DNA of 64,000 nucleotides from Halobacteriales archaeon QS_4_66_20 (GTDB taxonomy: Archaea > Halobacteriota > Halobacteria > Halobacteriales > Haloarculaceae). Of this stretch, positions 16,029-44,710 are shown in pieces (the first letter of the stretch is position 1; each line of letters begins with the position of its first letter). The stretch is from contig PXRK01000067.1 in NCBI GenBank assembly GCA_003021015.1, positions 62,001-126,000 on the forward strand. Reading direction: 5' to 3'. A model generated the notes under the pieces. It searched no databases and was not told where the DNA came from. It was given only the letters and a program-made list of their open reading frames with translations. The translations under genes and the position numbers were made by a program.

Positions 16029-17888
16029 ATGAATGGGACCCAGAACGCGTCGTCAGACGACAGGACCCGCGGTCAGGGATCGGCCCCCGACCGCAGTCAG
16101 GCACAGGACCACAGAGAAACCCAGCAGAGGCGGGGGGCCAACCGCCGACAGGTGCTGTCGCTGCTCGGCGCGACAACAGCGGCATCGCTGGCGGGGTGTT
16201 CCGGCCTCCTGGGCGACGATTCGGGGGGCGATGGGGACCTCGGCGAGCGGGTGCCGCCGCTCGTCCTGGAGTACTGGACGGGGCTGGGCGGCGACTCGAA
16301 GATCTTCGAGGACACGTCGCCGGTCGTCCAGGAGGCGGCCGAGGCGCTCGGGATGGAGCTCGAAATCGCGCCGACGCAGTTTACCGAACAGATCGGCCAC
16401 GTGGCCAACGACGAGCGGACCCACGACATCAGCTACTGGTCGTTCGGGTTCGCGCCCGACCGCCTGGACCCCGACGAGTGGTGTCGGCGGTTCTCGGCCA
16501 CCTGGGCGGGCGCGGACGGCGATCACAACCCGTCGAACTGGGCGAACTGCGGGTACACCGAGCCGGCGCTGGCACAGGCGTCGGCACAGACCGAGAGCGA
16601 ACGCCAGGAGCTCGTCAACGAATCCCAGGAGATCCTCACCAGCGAGTACGCCGCGATCCCGGTCGCCGGACAGGTGTCGTTCACGGCCTACCGGACCGAC
16701 GAGGTCGAGATCGGCGGCGCCGGAACGGCGGGCATCAACAGGCAGAACCCGTACGTGTACGTCGAGTCGACGCCGAAAAACGGCGACTCCTTTACCGCGT
16801 TCACGTCGCCGGAGATGCTGGAGACGACGAACTTCGGCGTGATCGAAAGCTCCACCTCGCAGGGCGTCTGGAACAAGCTCGTGCACTCGACGCTGACCCA
16901 GTACGACAGCGACCTCGAACTCACGAACGTGCTCGCCGACGAGTGGGAGGCCAGCAACGGCGGCCGGACGATCACCGTCACGCTGAAAGACGCGACGTTC
17001 CACAACGGCGACCCGGTGACCGCGGAGGACGTCCAGTTCACGTTCGAGCAGCTGGTGCGCCACCCCGGGACGTACACGCAGGCGAGCAACCCGCCGTACG
17101 ACTCCATCGACGTCGTCGACGACAAGACGGTAGAGTTCAACCTCGAGGAGCCGTTCCTGCCGCTCGTGAGCCGCGTCTGGCCGCGGTGGGGCATCTTCCA
17201 CAAGCAGACGTGGGTCGACGGCGGCGCCGTGGAGAACCCCGAGGAGTTCTCCATGGACCCGGTGATCGGCTCTGGCCCCTTCGAGATCAACCAGCTCGAA
17301 TCCGGCTCGTTCATGGAGCTGGTGCCCCACGACGGCCACCCGACGATGTCGCCGGACCACAACGTCGTGTTCAGGGTCTACCGGGAGCCGCAGGCGATGT
17401 TCCAGGGGTTCCAGGCGAACGAGGTGCAGATGATCGCCGAGCTCTCGCCGGGCCTGTTCGAGCGGGTCCAGAAGATGGACAACGCCGAGGCGGTCAGCAC
17501 CACCAAGCACACGCCGTTCGGGCTGTACCCACAGACGCCGAAGGCGCCGCTGAAGTTCAAGGAGCTCCGTCAGGCGCTGGGCATGGCGCTCAACCGCCAG
17601 AAGATCAACAACCTGGGCTTCCTCGGCGAGACGGAGCCGGAGTACGCCGGCACACTGTTCACCAACGTCCACCCGTGGCGGCCGCCCGACGACCGGCTGA
17701 CGAAGTTCACCGAGGAGCCCGAGGGCGAACCCGAAGCGGCTCGGCAGCTGCTGGAGGACGCAGGCTACGGCTACGACGGCGACGGGAACCTCCACTACCC
17801 GCCGGACGCGGACCTTACGCCGCTGTGGCCGGCGGAGGAACTCCCGCCCGAAGAGGACTTCCCCTGCCTGAGCGAGTCCGAGGAGTAG
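16029..17888 (+). CDS. Peptide/nickel-type ABC substrate-binding lipoprotein with apparently permuted fold
   Basis: A 619-residue exported lipoprotein: twin arginines R39-R40 (NRRQVLSLLGA) and lipobox LAGC57. The body does not follow the usual order. Residues about 78-232 (LVLEYWTGLGG ... SYWSFGFAPDRLDPDEW ... NESQEILTSEYAAIPV) resemble the C-terminal part of SBP_bac_5 proteins. Residues about 255-619 run from the normal N-terminal block (TSPEMLETTNF) through TFHNGDPVTAEDVQFTFE to AARQLLEDAGYGYDGDG and stop where that C-terminal part should begin. The simplest reading is a circular permutation. It heads an importer operon; the permease gene follows 6 nt later. An upstream GTG at 15996 is a weaker start. 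Confidence 0.85.
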   Translation: MNGTQNASSDDRTRGQGSAPDRSQAQDHRETQQRRGANRRQVLSLLGATTAASLAGCSGLLGDDSGGDGDLGERVPPLVLEYWTGLGGDSKIFEDTSPVVQEAAEALGMELEIAPTQFTEQIGHVANDERTHDISYWSFGFAPDRLDPDEWCRRFSATWAGADGDHNPSNWANCGYTEPALAQASAQTESERQELVNESQEILTSEYAAIPVAGQVSFTAYRTDEVEIGGAGTAGINRQNPYVYVESTPKNGDSFTAFTSPEMLETTNFGVIESSTSQGVWNKLVHSTLTQYDSDLELTNVLADEWEASNGGRTITVTLKDATFHNGDPVTAEDVQFTFEQLVRHPGTYTQASNPPYDSIDVVDDKTVEFNLEEPFLPLVSRVWPRWGIFHKQTWVDGGAVENPEEFSMDPVIGSGPFEINQLESGSFMELVPHDGHPTMSPDHNVVFRVYREPQAMFQGFQANEVQMIAELSPGLFERVQKMDNAEAVSTTKHTPFGLYPQTPKAPLKFKELRQALGMALNRQKINNLGFLGETEPEYAGTLFTNVHPWRPPDDRLTKFTEEPEGEPEAARQLLEDAGYGYDGDGNLHYPPDADLTPLWPAEELPPEEDFPCLSESEE

Positions 17889-18829: not shown

Positions 18830-21001
18830 ATGTCGGAACAACTGCTTCAGGTCGACGATCTCTCGGTCCGGTACCACACCGCCTCCGGCCCGGTCGCGGC
18901 GGTCTCGGACGTCTCGTTTTCGATCGACGAGGGCGAGTACTTCGGGCTGGTCGGCGAGTCCGGCTCCGGGAAGAGCACGGCAGCGATGGCGATCATGGGC
19001 GGCCTCGCGAGCAACGGCGAGGTCACGTCGGGCTCGATCAGCTACCGCGGGGAGGACATCACCGACCTCTCCGAACGGGAACTGCGCGAGAAACTGCGGT
19101 GGAAGGAGGTCGCGTGGATCCCGCAGGGGTCGATGAGCAGCCTGGACCCGATGATGCGGCTGCACGAGCAGGCGCTGGGCGTCGGCCGCCGTCACAGCGA
19201 CCTCTCCGACGAGGAGATCGGCGGGAAGTTCCGCGACATGTTCGAAGTGGTGGCCCTCCAGCGCGAACGCGCGACAGAGTATCCACACCAGTTCTCCGGC
19301 GGCATGCAGCAGCGCGCGCTGATCGCGCTCGCGCTGTTTCTGGAGCCGTCGCTGATCATCGCGGACGAGCCGACGACCGCCCTCGACGTCATCATGCAGG
19401 ACCAGGTGTTCAAGTACCTCGACGCCGCCCGGGAGGAACTCGCGACGAGCATGCTGTTGATCACCCACGACATCAGCCTGGTGTTCGAGTCCTGCGACCG
19501 GATGGGCGTGATGCACGCCGGCCAACTGGCCGAGAGCGGCTCCGTCCGCGATGTCTACGACTCGCCCCGCCACCCCTACACCTTCCTGTTGCAGGGCTCG
19601 TTCCCCGACATCCGGTACCCCGAGCGGGACCTCGAAGTGATCGAGGGCGACCCGCCACAGCTGTTGGGCGACGTGGCCGAGTGTACGTTCGCCGACCGGT
19701 GCCCGTTCGCCGTCGAGGAGTGTCGGGAGCTCGCGCCCCCGCTCGAACCGGTCGAGGCGGGCGAAGACCCCGACCACCGCGTCGCCTGCATCCGCAGCGA
19801 GGAAGCGTACGACGAGTACCAGCAACGCAGGGCCGACGCGGATGAAGCGACCGGGCGGGAAGAGATCGACACAGGTTCCAAGGAGGCGGCTGGGACTGCC
19901 GCTACGGAGGGGTTCGACGAGGACGCCCCGCTGTTCGAGGTCCGGAACCTAGAGAAGTACTTCGATCGCAACAGGAGCCTGCTCGACAGCCTGTTCGACC
20001 GGAACGACCCGGTCCAGGCCGTCGACGACGTCTCGCTGACGCTCTCGGAGACGGACGCGCGGGGCGTCATCGGCGAGAGCGGCTGCGGCAAGACGACGCT
20101 GCTCAAGACGCTCGTCGGCCTGGAGTCGCCGACGGGCGGGGAGATCCTGTTCAAGGGACGGGACGTCGCCGAGTTCGGCCGGACGGACTGGAAGCGGTTC
20201 CGCAGCGACGTCCAGCTGATCTTCCAGGACCCGTTCAACTCGCTGGACCCGAAGTTCACCGTCGAGGAGACGCTGCGCGAGCCGCTGGCGGTTCACTCGA
20301 TGGACGACCGCGACCGGCGGGTCAGGGAGGCCTGCGAGCAGGTCGGGCTGACCCCGCCGGAGCGGTATCTCGGGCGGCTGCCGGACCAGCTGAGCGGCGG
20401 CGAGAAACAACGGGTGTCGATCGCACGCGCGCTCGTGGTCGATCCCGACGTGTTGCTGGCCGACGAACCGGTGTCGATGCTCGACGTCTCGACCCAGACC
20501 GCCGTCCTGGAGCTGCTGTCGGATCTCGTCGAGGAGCTGGGCCTGGCGATGCTGTACATCTCCCACGACCTCTCGACGGTGTCGTACGTCTGCAACGAGA
20601 TCGACGTCATGTACCTCGGCCGCGTCGTCGAATCCGGGCCGACGGCCGACATCCTGGCCGACCCGAAACACCCCTACTCGCAGGCGCTGATCAACGCCGT
20701 CCCGGTGCCCGACCCGAACGCCGACCGCGAGCGGACGGTCATGGAGGGCGCGCCGCGCGAACCGATCGGGGTCGGCGACGGCTGTCGCTTCCGCGACCGG
20801 TGCCCGGACGCGATGGAGGTCTGCGAGCGGACGCCCCACACCGTCCCGGTCGACGGGACCCGGGACGTCGCCTGTCACCTCTACTACGATCACGAGTCCG
20901 AAACGACGGACGGCGCGGCGTCCGATCCCGTAGCCGACGATGCCGGCGACGGTACGACCGACCACCAGGCCGACGAGCAGCCGGCCGGAGGAGGGAACTG
21001 A
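18830..21001 (+). CDS. Peptide ABC transporter, tandem DppD-DppF fusion ATPase
   Basis: A 723-residue protein holding both ATPase subunits of the importer. Domain 1 (1-330): Walker A GESGSGKST, signature FSGGMQQR, Walker B LIIADEPTTALD, then the Cys-rich Opp tail CTFADRCPFAVEEC. A 40-residue acidic linker follows. Domain 2 (365-700): GESGCGKTT, LSGGEKQR, VLLADEPVSMLD, and tail CRFRDRCPDAMEVC. The Cys clusters are the iron-sulfur-like tails of oligopeptide ATPases. Separate DppD and DppF genes are the rule; this fusion guarantees a heterodimer. Its TGA overlaps an ATG at 21001. Confidence 0.93.
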   Translation: MSEQLLQVDDLSVRYHTASGPVAAVSDVSFSIDEGEYFGLVGESGSGKSTAAMAIMGGLASNGEVTSGSISYRGEDITDLSERELREKLRWKEVAWIPQGSMSSLDPMMRLHEQALGVGRRHSDLSDEEIGGKFRDMFEVVALQRERATEYPHQFSGGMQQRALIALALFLEPSLIIADEPTTALDVIMQDQVFKYLDAAREELATSMLLITHDISLVFESCDRMGVMHAGQLAESGSVRDVYDSPRHPYTFLLQGSFPDIRYPERDLEVIEGDPPQLLGDVAECTFADRCPFAVEECRELAPPLEPVEAGEDPDHRVACIRSEEAYDEYQQRRADADEATGREEIDTGSKEAAGTAATEGFDEDAPLFEVRNLEKYFDRNRSLLDSLFDRNDPVQAVDDVSLTLSETDARGVIGESGCGKTTLLKTLVGLESPTGGEILFKGRDVAEFGRTDWKRFRSDVQLIFQDPFNSLDPKFTVEETLREPLAVHSMDDRDRRVREACEQVGLTPPERYLGRLPDQLSGGEKQRVSIARALVVDPDVLLADEPVSMLDVSTQTAVLELLSDLVEELGLAMLYISHDLSTVSYVCNEIDVMYLGRVVESGPTADILADPKHPYSQALINAVPVPDPNADRERTVMEGAPREPIGVGDGCRFRDRCPDAMEVCERTPHTVPVDGTRDVACHLYYDHESETTDGAASDPVADDAGDGTTDHQADEQPAGGGN

Positions 21002-21078
21002 TGCGCCCCGACTGGACCCGTCTCCGGGCTGTCGGGTCGAACCGGACTGCCGCCATCGGCGAGGGGGGTCGGCGGTGA
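21001..21078 (+). CDS. Possible 25-codon coupling ORF between ATPase and permease genes
   Basis: An ATG overlapping the ATPase stop (TGATG) opens 25 codons (MRPDWTRLRAVGSNRTAAIG...) whose TGA overlaps the GTG start of the next permease (GTGA). It fills the gap exactly and would carry ribosomes from one gene to the next. No family similarity; it may be only a translational-coupling device or chance. Confidence 0.3.
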   Translation: MRPDWTRLRAVGSNRTAAIGEGGRR

Positions 21079-22061
21079 ACAGAGTCCGGTACTTCCTGCT
21101 CCGGTCGGTCCAAACGGTGGTGCTGCTCTGGCTGGTGCTGTCGTTCATCTTCCTGCTGTTCCGGCTGATGCCGGGGAGTTTCGCCGACATCATGCTCGCA
21201 CGCGGCGCCGACGCGGAATCGGTCGCCCAGTTCGAGGAAAACTGGGGGCTCAACGACCCGCTGCACGTGCAGTACGTCAACTACATGACCAACTTCGTCC
21301 AGCTGGACGTCGGCACCTCACTGCAGTACCGGGTGCCCGTTCTCGAACACGTCAGGATGCGCATCTTCAACTCGTTTATCCTGATGGCGCCGGCGATCAC
21401 TGTCGCGTACCTGCTTGGCAGCCTCATCGGGACGATCACCGGCCGCATGCGCGGGTCGAACCTCGAAAAGTACGGCATCGTGCCGATCATCTTCGTCGGC
21501 TCGTTTCCGGCCTTTTTCACCGCGATCGTGCTCGTCATTGTGTTCGCTGGCTGGCTCGACGTCTTCCCGACCGGCGGCATGTACACCCCCGGGACGGCGG
21601 GCCGCGACGGCTCCTGGCTGGCGCCGTATCTGACGGCCGACTTCGCGGTCCACTACGTGCTGCCGTTCACTGCCGTTCTCCTGCGGTACCTGTACCTCCC
21701 GACGCTCATCATGCGGACGAGCGTCGTCGAGGTCATGGACCAGGATTTCCTGTTCTACCACCGGATGACGGGCATCTCCCGGGTCACGGAGTGGTTGCAC
21801 ACAACGAAACACGCGAGCCTCCCCGTCATCACGCTGTACCCGGTGTCGATGACGCGGGCCATCGGCGGGCTGGTGTTCATCGAGGTGGTGTTCAACTGGC
21901 CGGGCATGGGCTTTGCGCTCATCGACGGGGTGCTGTCGCGGGATTTCCCCGTCGTGCAGTTCGTGTTTTTCCTGATCGCCGCCTTCGTCATCATCGCGAA
22001 CTTCGCGGTCGACGTCGTTTACGGGTTCATCGATCCACGGGTGAGCGTCGACGGGGACTGA
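21075..22061 (+). CDS. Peptide ABC transporter permease (DppB-type)
   Basis: A 328-residue permease beginning at GTG (NRVRYFLLRSVQTVVLLWLV), preceded by the purine-rich GAGGGGGG. It has the DppB pattern: first helix, external region with ENWGLNDPLHVQYVNYM, then five helices with the coupling loop QDFLFYHRMTGISRVTEWLHTTK-type segment and the end VVYGFIDPRVS. It completes the importer. Gene order binding protein, DppC, DppDF fusion, DppB differs from the common dppABCDF order. Confidence 0.9.
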   Translation: MNRVRYFLLRSVQTVVLLWLVLSFIFLLFRLMPGSFADIMLARGADAESVAQFEENWGLNDPLHVQYVNYMTNFVQLDVGTSLQYRVPVLEHVRMRIFNSFILMAPAITVAYLLGSLIGTITGRMRGSNLEKYGIVPIIFVGSFPAFFTAIVLVIVFAGWLDVFPTGGMYTPGTAGRDGSWLAPYLTADFAVHYVLPFTAVLLRYLYLPTLIMRTSVVEVMDQDFLFYHRMTGISRVTEWLHTTKHASLPVITLYPVSMTRAIGGLVFIEVVFNWPGMGFALIDGVLSRDFPVVQFVFFLIAAFVIIANFAVDVVYGFIDPRVSVDGD

Positions 22062-43021: not shown

Positions 43022-44710
43022 CTACAGTCCGACTTCCCGGAGGTGGAGGTGGTACTGCCCCCACCAGAGCGGGTGCTCAGTCCACTCGTCGATGCCCTGC
43101 ACCCCGTCTTCGAACGCGTAGATCCGGTTGAGCAGGTTGAGCGGGATCGCCGGCAGGTCCTGGTGGAGGATCCGCTGGGCTTCGAGCGCCGCCTCCACCC
43201 GGGCCTCGGGGTCGGGGTCGAACTGGGCCTGCCCGATGAGGTCGTCTACCTCCGAATTCTCGTAGTTACCGAAGTTCAGGCCGCCGACCTCGCTCGTCTT
43301 CTGGCTGCTGTGGTAGTAGTCCGAGAGCACCGACGACGCGAACGGGGTGAACGCGCCGCCGCTGTTAGCGAGGTGGTGCTCGTTGTTCTCGAGTTCGGCG
43401 TAGAACGTCGACGCCTCGGGCACCTGGAGGTCGGTCGCGATGCCGACCTCGCTCAGCATGGCCTGGATGGCCTCCGCCTGGTTCGACAACAGCGGGAACG
43501 GGAACGAGTAATGGTTCAGCCGGAGTTCCTCGCCGTCGCGGGCCCTCGTCTCCCCCTCCTCGTCGTTCGTCCAGCCGGCTGCGTCGAGCTCCTCGCGGGC
43601 CGCGTCGGGGCTATAGGCCGGGTGCAGCTCCTCGTTCTCCGACTCGGGAAGCGCGTTCGCCCAGAACGGCGGGACGAACCCCTTGGTCGTCTCCCCCTCG
43701 CCATCGAGCCCGACGTCGATGAGGGGACCGCGGTTGATCGCGTGAGCGATCGCCCGCCGCACCTCGATCTCGTCGGTCGGCGGCTTCGCCGTGTTGACCG
43801 GGAGGAACGTCCACGTCGACTGGGTACGCCGGACCTCTGTCCCGCTGTTGTCCTCGATCGACGCCGCCTGTCCGAGCGCGGTCTCGTAATCGGCGTGGAG
43901 GTCGCCGGCGGTCAGCTCGTTGGCACGCGTAGCGTCTTCCGGGATGATGTCGAGGACGACGCGGTCGACGTTGGACTGTGGGCGGCTCGTGAACTCCGGC
44001 CCCCACTCGTAGTCGTCATACCGCTCCAGTTCGACGTAGTCGGCGGCCGCCCACTCGACGAACTCGTACGGTCCGGTGCCGACGATGACCTCCCGCCCCC
44101 AGTCGTCGCCGGCGTCCTCGACTGCGTCGCGGGGTGCCATCCCGATCTCGAACTCCGAGAGTTCCCGCAGGAACAGCGGGTACGGCTGGTCCGTCTCGAT
44201 CGTCACCTCGTACGTTCCCGACGCCTCCATCTCCGTGACCGGGTCGAAGACCGACGCGTGCGCACCGAGGTCGACGAGCCGCTCGAAGTTCCAGACGACC
44301 TGCTCGGCGTCCAGCTCGGTCTCGTTGTGGAACGTGACGCCCTCCTCGAGCTGGAACACGAACTGCCTCGCGTCGTCGAGTATCTCGTAGTCCGAGGCGA
44401 GATGCGGGACCGGCTCGATATCACTGTTCAGGAGAAACAGGGTCTCGTGGACCGGGGCGAGCGCGACCCCCTCCGGGATCCGTCCGGATTCGTGGATGTC
44501 CAGCGTGCTCGGTTCGCTGTTGAGTCCCACCCGGAACTCCGAGTCCCCGTCCCCGTTTCCGTTTCCGTTTCCGTTTCCGTTTCCGTTCTCGTTGCCGTTA
44601 CCGTCGTCGTCATCGTCGCCGAGGCACCCGGCCAGCCCGGTGCCGACACCGACGCCCAGGGCTGCCAGTAGCTGCCGCCGCCCGATCTTCGGTGTGCTAT
44701 CATACGACAT
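43022..44710 (-). CDS. Peptide/nickel-type ABC substrate-binding lipoprotein, second importer
   Basis: A 562-residue exported lipoprotein. R11-R12 (GRRQLLAALGVG) forms the Tat motif and C29 the lipobox (LAGC). An acidic and Asn-Gly repeat linker (about residues 32-55) follows, then the normal SBP_bac_5 order: SEPSTLDIHESG, ASDYEILDDAR, GVTFHNETELDAEQVVW, VGTGPYEFVEW and a C-terminal lobe ending EHPLWWGQYHLH. It is convergent with the importer genes and has its own promoter. The ATG at 44710 was chosen because the upstream ATG at 44731 lies inside the TATA box. Confidence 0.9.
   Translation of the reverse strand: MSYDSTPKIGRRQLLAALGVGVGTGLAGCLGDDDDDGNGNENGNGNGNGNGNGDGDSEFRVGLNSEPSTLDIHESGRIPEGVALAPVHETLFLLNSDIEPVPHLASDYEILDDARQFVFQLEEGVTFHNETELDAEQVVWNFERLVDLGAHASVFDPVTEMEASGTYEVTIETDQPYPLFLRELSEFEIGMAPRDAVEDAGDDWGREVIVGTGPYEFVEWAAADYVELERYDDYEWGPEFTSRPQSNVDRVVLDIIPEDATRANELTAGDLHADYETALGQAASIEDNSGTEVRRTQSTWTFLPVNTAKPPTDEIEVRRAIAHAINRGPLIDVGLDGEGETTKGFVPPFWANALPESENEELHPAYSPDAAREELDAAGWTNDEEGETRARDGEELRLNHYSFPFPLLSNQAEAIQAMLSEVGIATDLQVPEASTFYAELENNEHHLANSGGAFTPFASSVLSDYYHSSQKTSEVGGLNFGNYENSEVDDLIGQAQFDPDPEARVEAALEAQRILHQDLPAIPLNLLNRIYAFEDGVQGIDEWTEHPLWWGQYHLHLREVGL
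44543..44602 (-). repeat. Hexanucleotide tandem repeat encoding an Asn-Gly linker
   Basis: Ten hexamers: GTCCCC twice, GTTTCC five times, then GTTCTC, GTTGCC, GTTACC on the plus strand. On the coding strand they give alternating Gly and Asn (or Asp/Glu) directly after the lipid anchor. Identical GTTTCC units make slippage likely, so linker length may vary. Confidence 0.8.

Follow-up and report, generated by a model that had tools for sequence, protein, structure and literature searches.

The window, the whole stretch of 64,000 nucleotides of contig PXRK01000067.1 (Halobacteriales archaeon QS_4_66_20) that was analysed, carries a gene for a substrate-binding protein (SBP) of the SBP_bac_5 family together with genes for an ABC importer (Table 1). 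The SBP gene is followed after 6 bases by the gene for a DppC-type permease, then by those for a fused DppDF ATPase and a DppB-type permease, so that the SBP is genetically linked to Opp/Dpp permeases and ATPases and its likely role would be ligand capture for the adjoining importer. DppD and DppF form a single 723-aa gene here and two genes in most related loci. The twin-arginine pair and the LAGC lipobox are conserved, and these motifs suggest that its N-terminus is exported via Tat and lipid-anchored.

Table 1. Features of the permuted SBP gene, its operon and the control gene, in positions of the window.
Feature	Positions	Strand	Basis
Circularly permuted SBP_bac_5 (Cluster C) substrate-binding protein, 619 aa	16029-17885, stop to 17888	+	ORF translation, Pfam, C-block profile
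Twin-arginine motif NRRQVL (RR39-40) to lipobox LAGC (Cys57)	16143-16199	+	Sequence
N-terminal module, residues ~75-254, equivalent to the canonical C-terminal block	16251-16790	+	C-block HMM (93-227), phmmer, AF2 of the module alone
Core module, residues ~255-592, equivalent to the canonical N-terminal and middle part	16791-17804	+	Pfam, phmmer
Cys174 in the N-terminal module	16548-16550	+	Co-occurrence with tail Cys
C-terminal tail of the close subfamily (LTPLWP..PEEDFPCL), with Cys613 at 17865-17867	17805-17885	+	Alignment of relatives
DppC/OppC-type permease, 310 aa	17895-18827	+	ORF list, operon comparison
Fused DppD-DppF-type ATPase, 723 aa, two nucleotide-binding domains	18830-21001	+	ORF list, operon comparison
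DppB/OppB-type permease, start uncertain	21069-22061	+	ORF list, operon comparison
Canonical-order SBP_bac_5 protein of a second importer, internal control	43022-44710	-	Pfam

The modules of the window protein are circularly permuted. Pfam SBP_bac_5 (PF00496) aligns positions 2-286 of its 368 with residues 298-588 (1.1e-49) at 170 bits, above the gathering score of 32.4 for family membership, and the rest of the profile is absent at the C-terminus, where the chain ends. The core module closes with the stretch AARQLLEDAGYGYDGDGNLHYP. A phmmer comparison with PDB chains places query residues 276-579 on residues 28-339 of DppA (1dpp) and query residues 108-222 on residues 376-485; likewise, residues 89-213 fall on residues 349-466 of Lmo0135, so that in both cases the N-terminal block lies on the C-terminus of the chain. 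No PDB chain was collinear with the whole window protein. Against a single canonical protein such as DppA or Lmo0135 the match of the N-terminal block is weak (~5 bits), and the case rests on profiles.

An HMM was built solely from 70 canonical C-terminal blocks, the SBP ORFs being taken from fetched loci. This HMM matched each of the 61 permuted proteins tested, always in the N-terminal part and with iE values as low as 8e-26, and residues 93-227 of the window protein with an iE of 7.2e-7. The reciprocal HMM, made from permuted N-terminal blocks, matched 63 of the 70 canonical proteins at a median position of 0.83 of their length, and none of 122 shuffled or reversed controls was matched by either HMM at 1e-3. 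The SBP ORFs split sharply into two groups: with few exceptions, the core of the permuted proteins is offset by ~190-255 residues and leaves a tail of ~0, whereas canonical proteins have an offset of 12-84 and a tail of ~110-250. The window protein thus contains both parts of the complete Cluster C fold, the core and the C-terminal block, in swapped order and not in the canonical N-to-C order; on these matches it is classed as a Cluster C member by homology and a variant by topology. An earlier sequence-only reading had proposed a circular permutation with a C-terminal-type block (residues 78-232) ahead of the usual N-terminal block (255-619), and had suggested that the block would align to the C-terminal part of DppA. 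The order holds, with boundaries now set at ~75-254 and ~255-592, and the permutation is borne out by the reciprocal profile tests, by the structure prediction and by a widespread family of the same order. The control protein on the minus strand, chosen in that reading for its normal order, does cover PF00496 collinearly (positions 1-366).

The whole window protein was modelled with AF2 using 18 sequences, giving a pLDDT of 82.9 and a pTM of 0.78, with poor values only in the leader (1-68) and at the extreme C-terminal end. The best PDB folds found with Foldseek for this model were AppA, DppA and NikA, with a TM (target) of ~0.5 over ~370 sequential columns, a result to be expected of an order-dependent aligner facing a permuted protein. 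When the N-terminal block was folded alone with the same relatives, it reached a pLDDT of only 58.6 and a pTM of 0.49; the same residues average ~90 in the whole-protein model. A block that folds as a separate domain had been named beforehand as evidence against the permutation, and these models predict the opposite. The break lies just past the 'AARQLLEDAG' helix and aligns by phmmer to about residue 340 of DppA, a position that, from established knowledge of DppA and OppA, we take to be inside lobe II (domain III). The N-terminal block would therefore complete lobe II and the last return strand to lobe I. On this point the sequence-only reading has to be corrected, as it had the module completing lobe I; with the new termini placed in lobe II and not in lobe I, the lipid-anchored end moves there as well.

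In the close relatives of the window protein, Cys174 and the tail cysteine (Cys613) occur together in 30 rows, including the window protein twice (P1 and L001), and are both absent in 7 rows, which may represent one clade or one loss event; there are no mixed cases. Some members of this close subfamily have no further cysteine beyond that of the lipobox. This co-occurrence suggests that Cys174 and Cys613 probably form a disulfide between the new N-terminal module and the new tail.

The permuted order is not confined to this gene. The window genome encodes three permuted SBPs (on C67, C38 and C83), the C38 protein being 35% identical over the full length, and full-span matches to the window protein at a threshold of 1e-25 were found in 53 of the 295 genomes that were sampled from the order. 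These homologs, which we call type I, mostly adjoin Opp/Dpp operons among the loci examined. A scan of the collection found type I members in Natronobiforma, Halomarina, Halorussus, Natrialba, Haloferax, Halorubrum, Salinigranum and others. The order also occurs in complete plasmids and chromosomes; the plasmid cases include Haloarcula marina and, unexpectedly, the Alphaproteobacteria Nitratireductor, Maritalea, Microvirga, Neorhizobium, Roseomonas and Ketogulonicigenium. Two of these type I proteins are WP_254280445.1 from Haloarcula marina and WP_113156578.1 from Nitratireductor. The alphaproteobacterial members checked start with a leader peptide in which no lipobox was seen, so that the permuted order does not depend on a lipid anchor. 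In a tree computed from rotated alignments, the bacterial members and haloarchaeal type I fall together on the same side of a branch (support 93/87). The window protein accordingly groups as one member of a large, old permuted clade common to haloarchaea and Alphaproteobacteria, and is not a single oddity. Neither module of type I has a close canonical relative. One locus (L060, G190:C2:135188-138935) carries a tandem pair of type I genes. In public annotation the permuted proteins are plain 'ABC transporter substrate-binding protein' entries.

A second group, type II, consists of one SBP (L186, G029:C6) and about 16 relatives, mostly from one haloarchaeal family. Its break is before the AxxLL helix, about 20 residues earlier than in type I. 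Compared by BLAST with a canonical ortholog (L223, G218:C3), residues 240-544 match 37-341 with 49% identity (5e-99) and residues 46-237 match 349-540 with 39% identity (9e-47); core identity to canonical orthologs ranges from 41 to 49%. Type II and its canonical orthologs share the operon order SBP-PermB-PermC-ATP-ATP. Comparison of these orthologs argues for a second, independent permutation that took place within a conserved operon. One type II protein (L235:6842-8629, G206) groups with the canonical orthologs (support 97/96), which may point to another permutation or to a reversal, and another (L237, G246:C5) is encoded in two frames, as a broken gene or through a sequencing error. A third permuted set, f21 (L176-L179), comes from another archaeal family of the same phylum. 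One of its members (L176:5733-7439) has a PGF-CTERM-like C-terminal tail, PGFGVIAVIAGVMAATYLLRRRR, possibly a C-terminal anchor in place of the N-terminal lipid.

AU tests on 36 rows, aligned after rotation and run under LG+G4 without mixture, rejected a single clade for all permuted proteins (p 2e-52), types I and II together (1e-56) and type I with f21 (8e-4); given the simple model and the rotated rows, the last is the softest of these results. A single origin was not rejected for type II (0.245) or for f21 (0.279). These tests indicate that the permutation arose at least three times, in type I and in two or more further lineages. Among long open frames that resembled duplicated intermediates, none turned out to be one. 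Three candidates (G026, 1336 aa; G084, 886 aa; G120, 833 aa) each contain one permuted SBP preceded by an open frame in GC-rich DNA, and a 1582-aa frame (L189, G023) was classed by profile alone. A further ORF (L131:5312-7255) was set aside as canonical in sequence, having only a weak N-terminal match.

Other origins of the swapped order were considered. Type I could be a chimera made by domain shuffling, in which the C-block now at the N-terminus came from another SBP gene and the original one was lost. Such an origin was suggested for the part of Treponema MglB-2 that is permuted (PMC4990184), and the type I N-terminal block does resemble canonical proteins less strongly than the core does. 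In type II, however, the core and the C-block find their matches in one and the same set of canonical orthologs, which share its operon, and this demonstrates that true permutation occurs in the family, and we regard a chimera as unlikely for type I. Far less probable is an unrelated extra domain fused to an SBP that lost its C-block, the core working alone or with a partner: PF00496 by itself gives just such a C-terminally truncated match, but the two block profiles recognise each other's proteins almost throughout and the N-terminal block is predicted to fold well only in context. An assembly, frameshift or gene-fusion artefact from two SBP genes, conceivable in a draft genome of 86 contigs, has next to no probability, since two paralogs, dozens of other genomes and complete plasmids and chromosomes show this order too.

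We therefore regard it as highly probable that the product of the window gene is a Cluster C (SBP_bac_5) SBP with a natural circular permutation, which serves a complete Opp/Dpp-type ABC importer as its capture subunit. The two-lobed fold would be kept, with the break in lobe II, after the AxxLLxxAG helix and before the strand that follows it, and with the original chain ends linked to each other. After Tat export and lipid anchoring, as the motifs suggest, the protein would be tethered by lobe II instead of lobe I, and ligand closure and docking on the permease pair would presumably proceed as usual. In the close subfamily the putative disulfide would hold the new C-terminal tail against the N-terminal module. 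The permutation presumably came about through tandem duplication followed by fusion and trimming, and the step it alters may be the anchor on lobe II or the order of folding.

For the family as a whole, a good case can be made that Cluster C SBPs were permuted repeatedly, with at least three and perhaps five origins, and that the chain was opened each time close to one particular helix-strand loop in lobe II. One of the lineages would span Archaea and Bacteria and another would have been swapped in place in a conserved importer operon, tether and folding order passing to the other lobe while transport continued. Permuted proteins are mostly laboratory constructs, and natural ones in transporters are, to our knowledge, rare, with one Cluster B family of known structure. 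Cluster C is among the largest families of binding proteins, and in it permutation appears recurrent and successful, the rotated form being widespread and unremarked in archaea and proteobacteria. The permuted order explains why profile searches call these SBPs truncated. Type II, with permuted and unpermuted orthologs in the same operon, offers natural test pairs for ABC import that bear on tether position, folding order and lobe dynamics, and the lobe II loop is marked as an opening site for such proteins that could be useful in sensor design.

No earlier report of a permuted SBP_bac_5 or Cluster C protein was found in open-access full text, although one may exist elsewhere, and the sole natural precedent found was MglB-2 (Tp0684) of Treponema pallidum. 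This permuted glucose-binding protein, for which a 'Cluster Bc' was proposed, is the tethered binding protein of an ABC importer, and its structure and ligand are known (PMC4990184). Both MglB-2 and the window protein are natural circular permutations of ABC-importer binding proteins. MglB-2, however, has a Type I/Cluster B sugar-binding fold broken in the N-lobe, with a fourth hinge crossing (PMC4990184), whereas the window protein belongs to Cluster C in fold and sequence and is broken in lobe II. Unlike MglB-2, permuted Cluster C proteins appear to have several origins and occur in Archaea and Bacteria; type II resembles the window protein in being a Cluster C SBP that is permuted and encoded in an Opp/Dpp operon, and has a separate origin. 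The window protein has the same fold elements and operon partners as DppA (1dpp), AppA (1xoc), OppA and NikA, all of PF00496, and the same Tat/lipobox export as canonical haloarchaeal Cluster C members, but relative to DppA, AppA, OppA and NikA its modules are rotated and its termini lie in lobe II.
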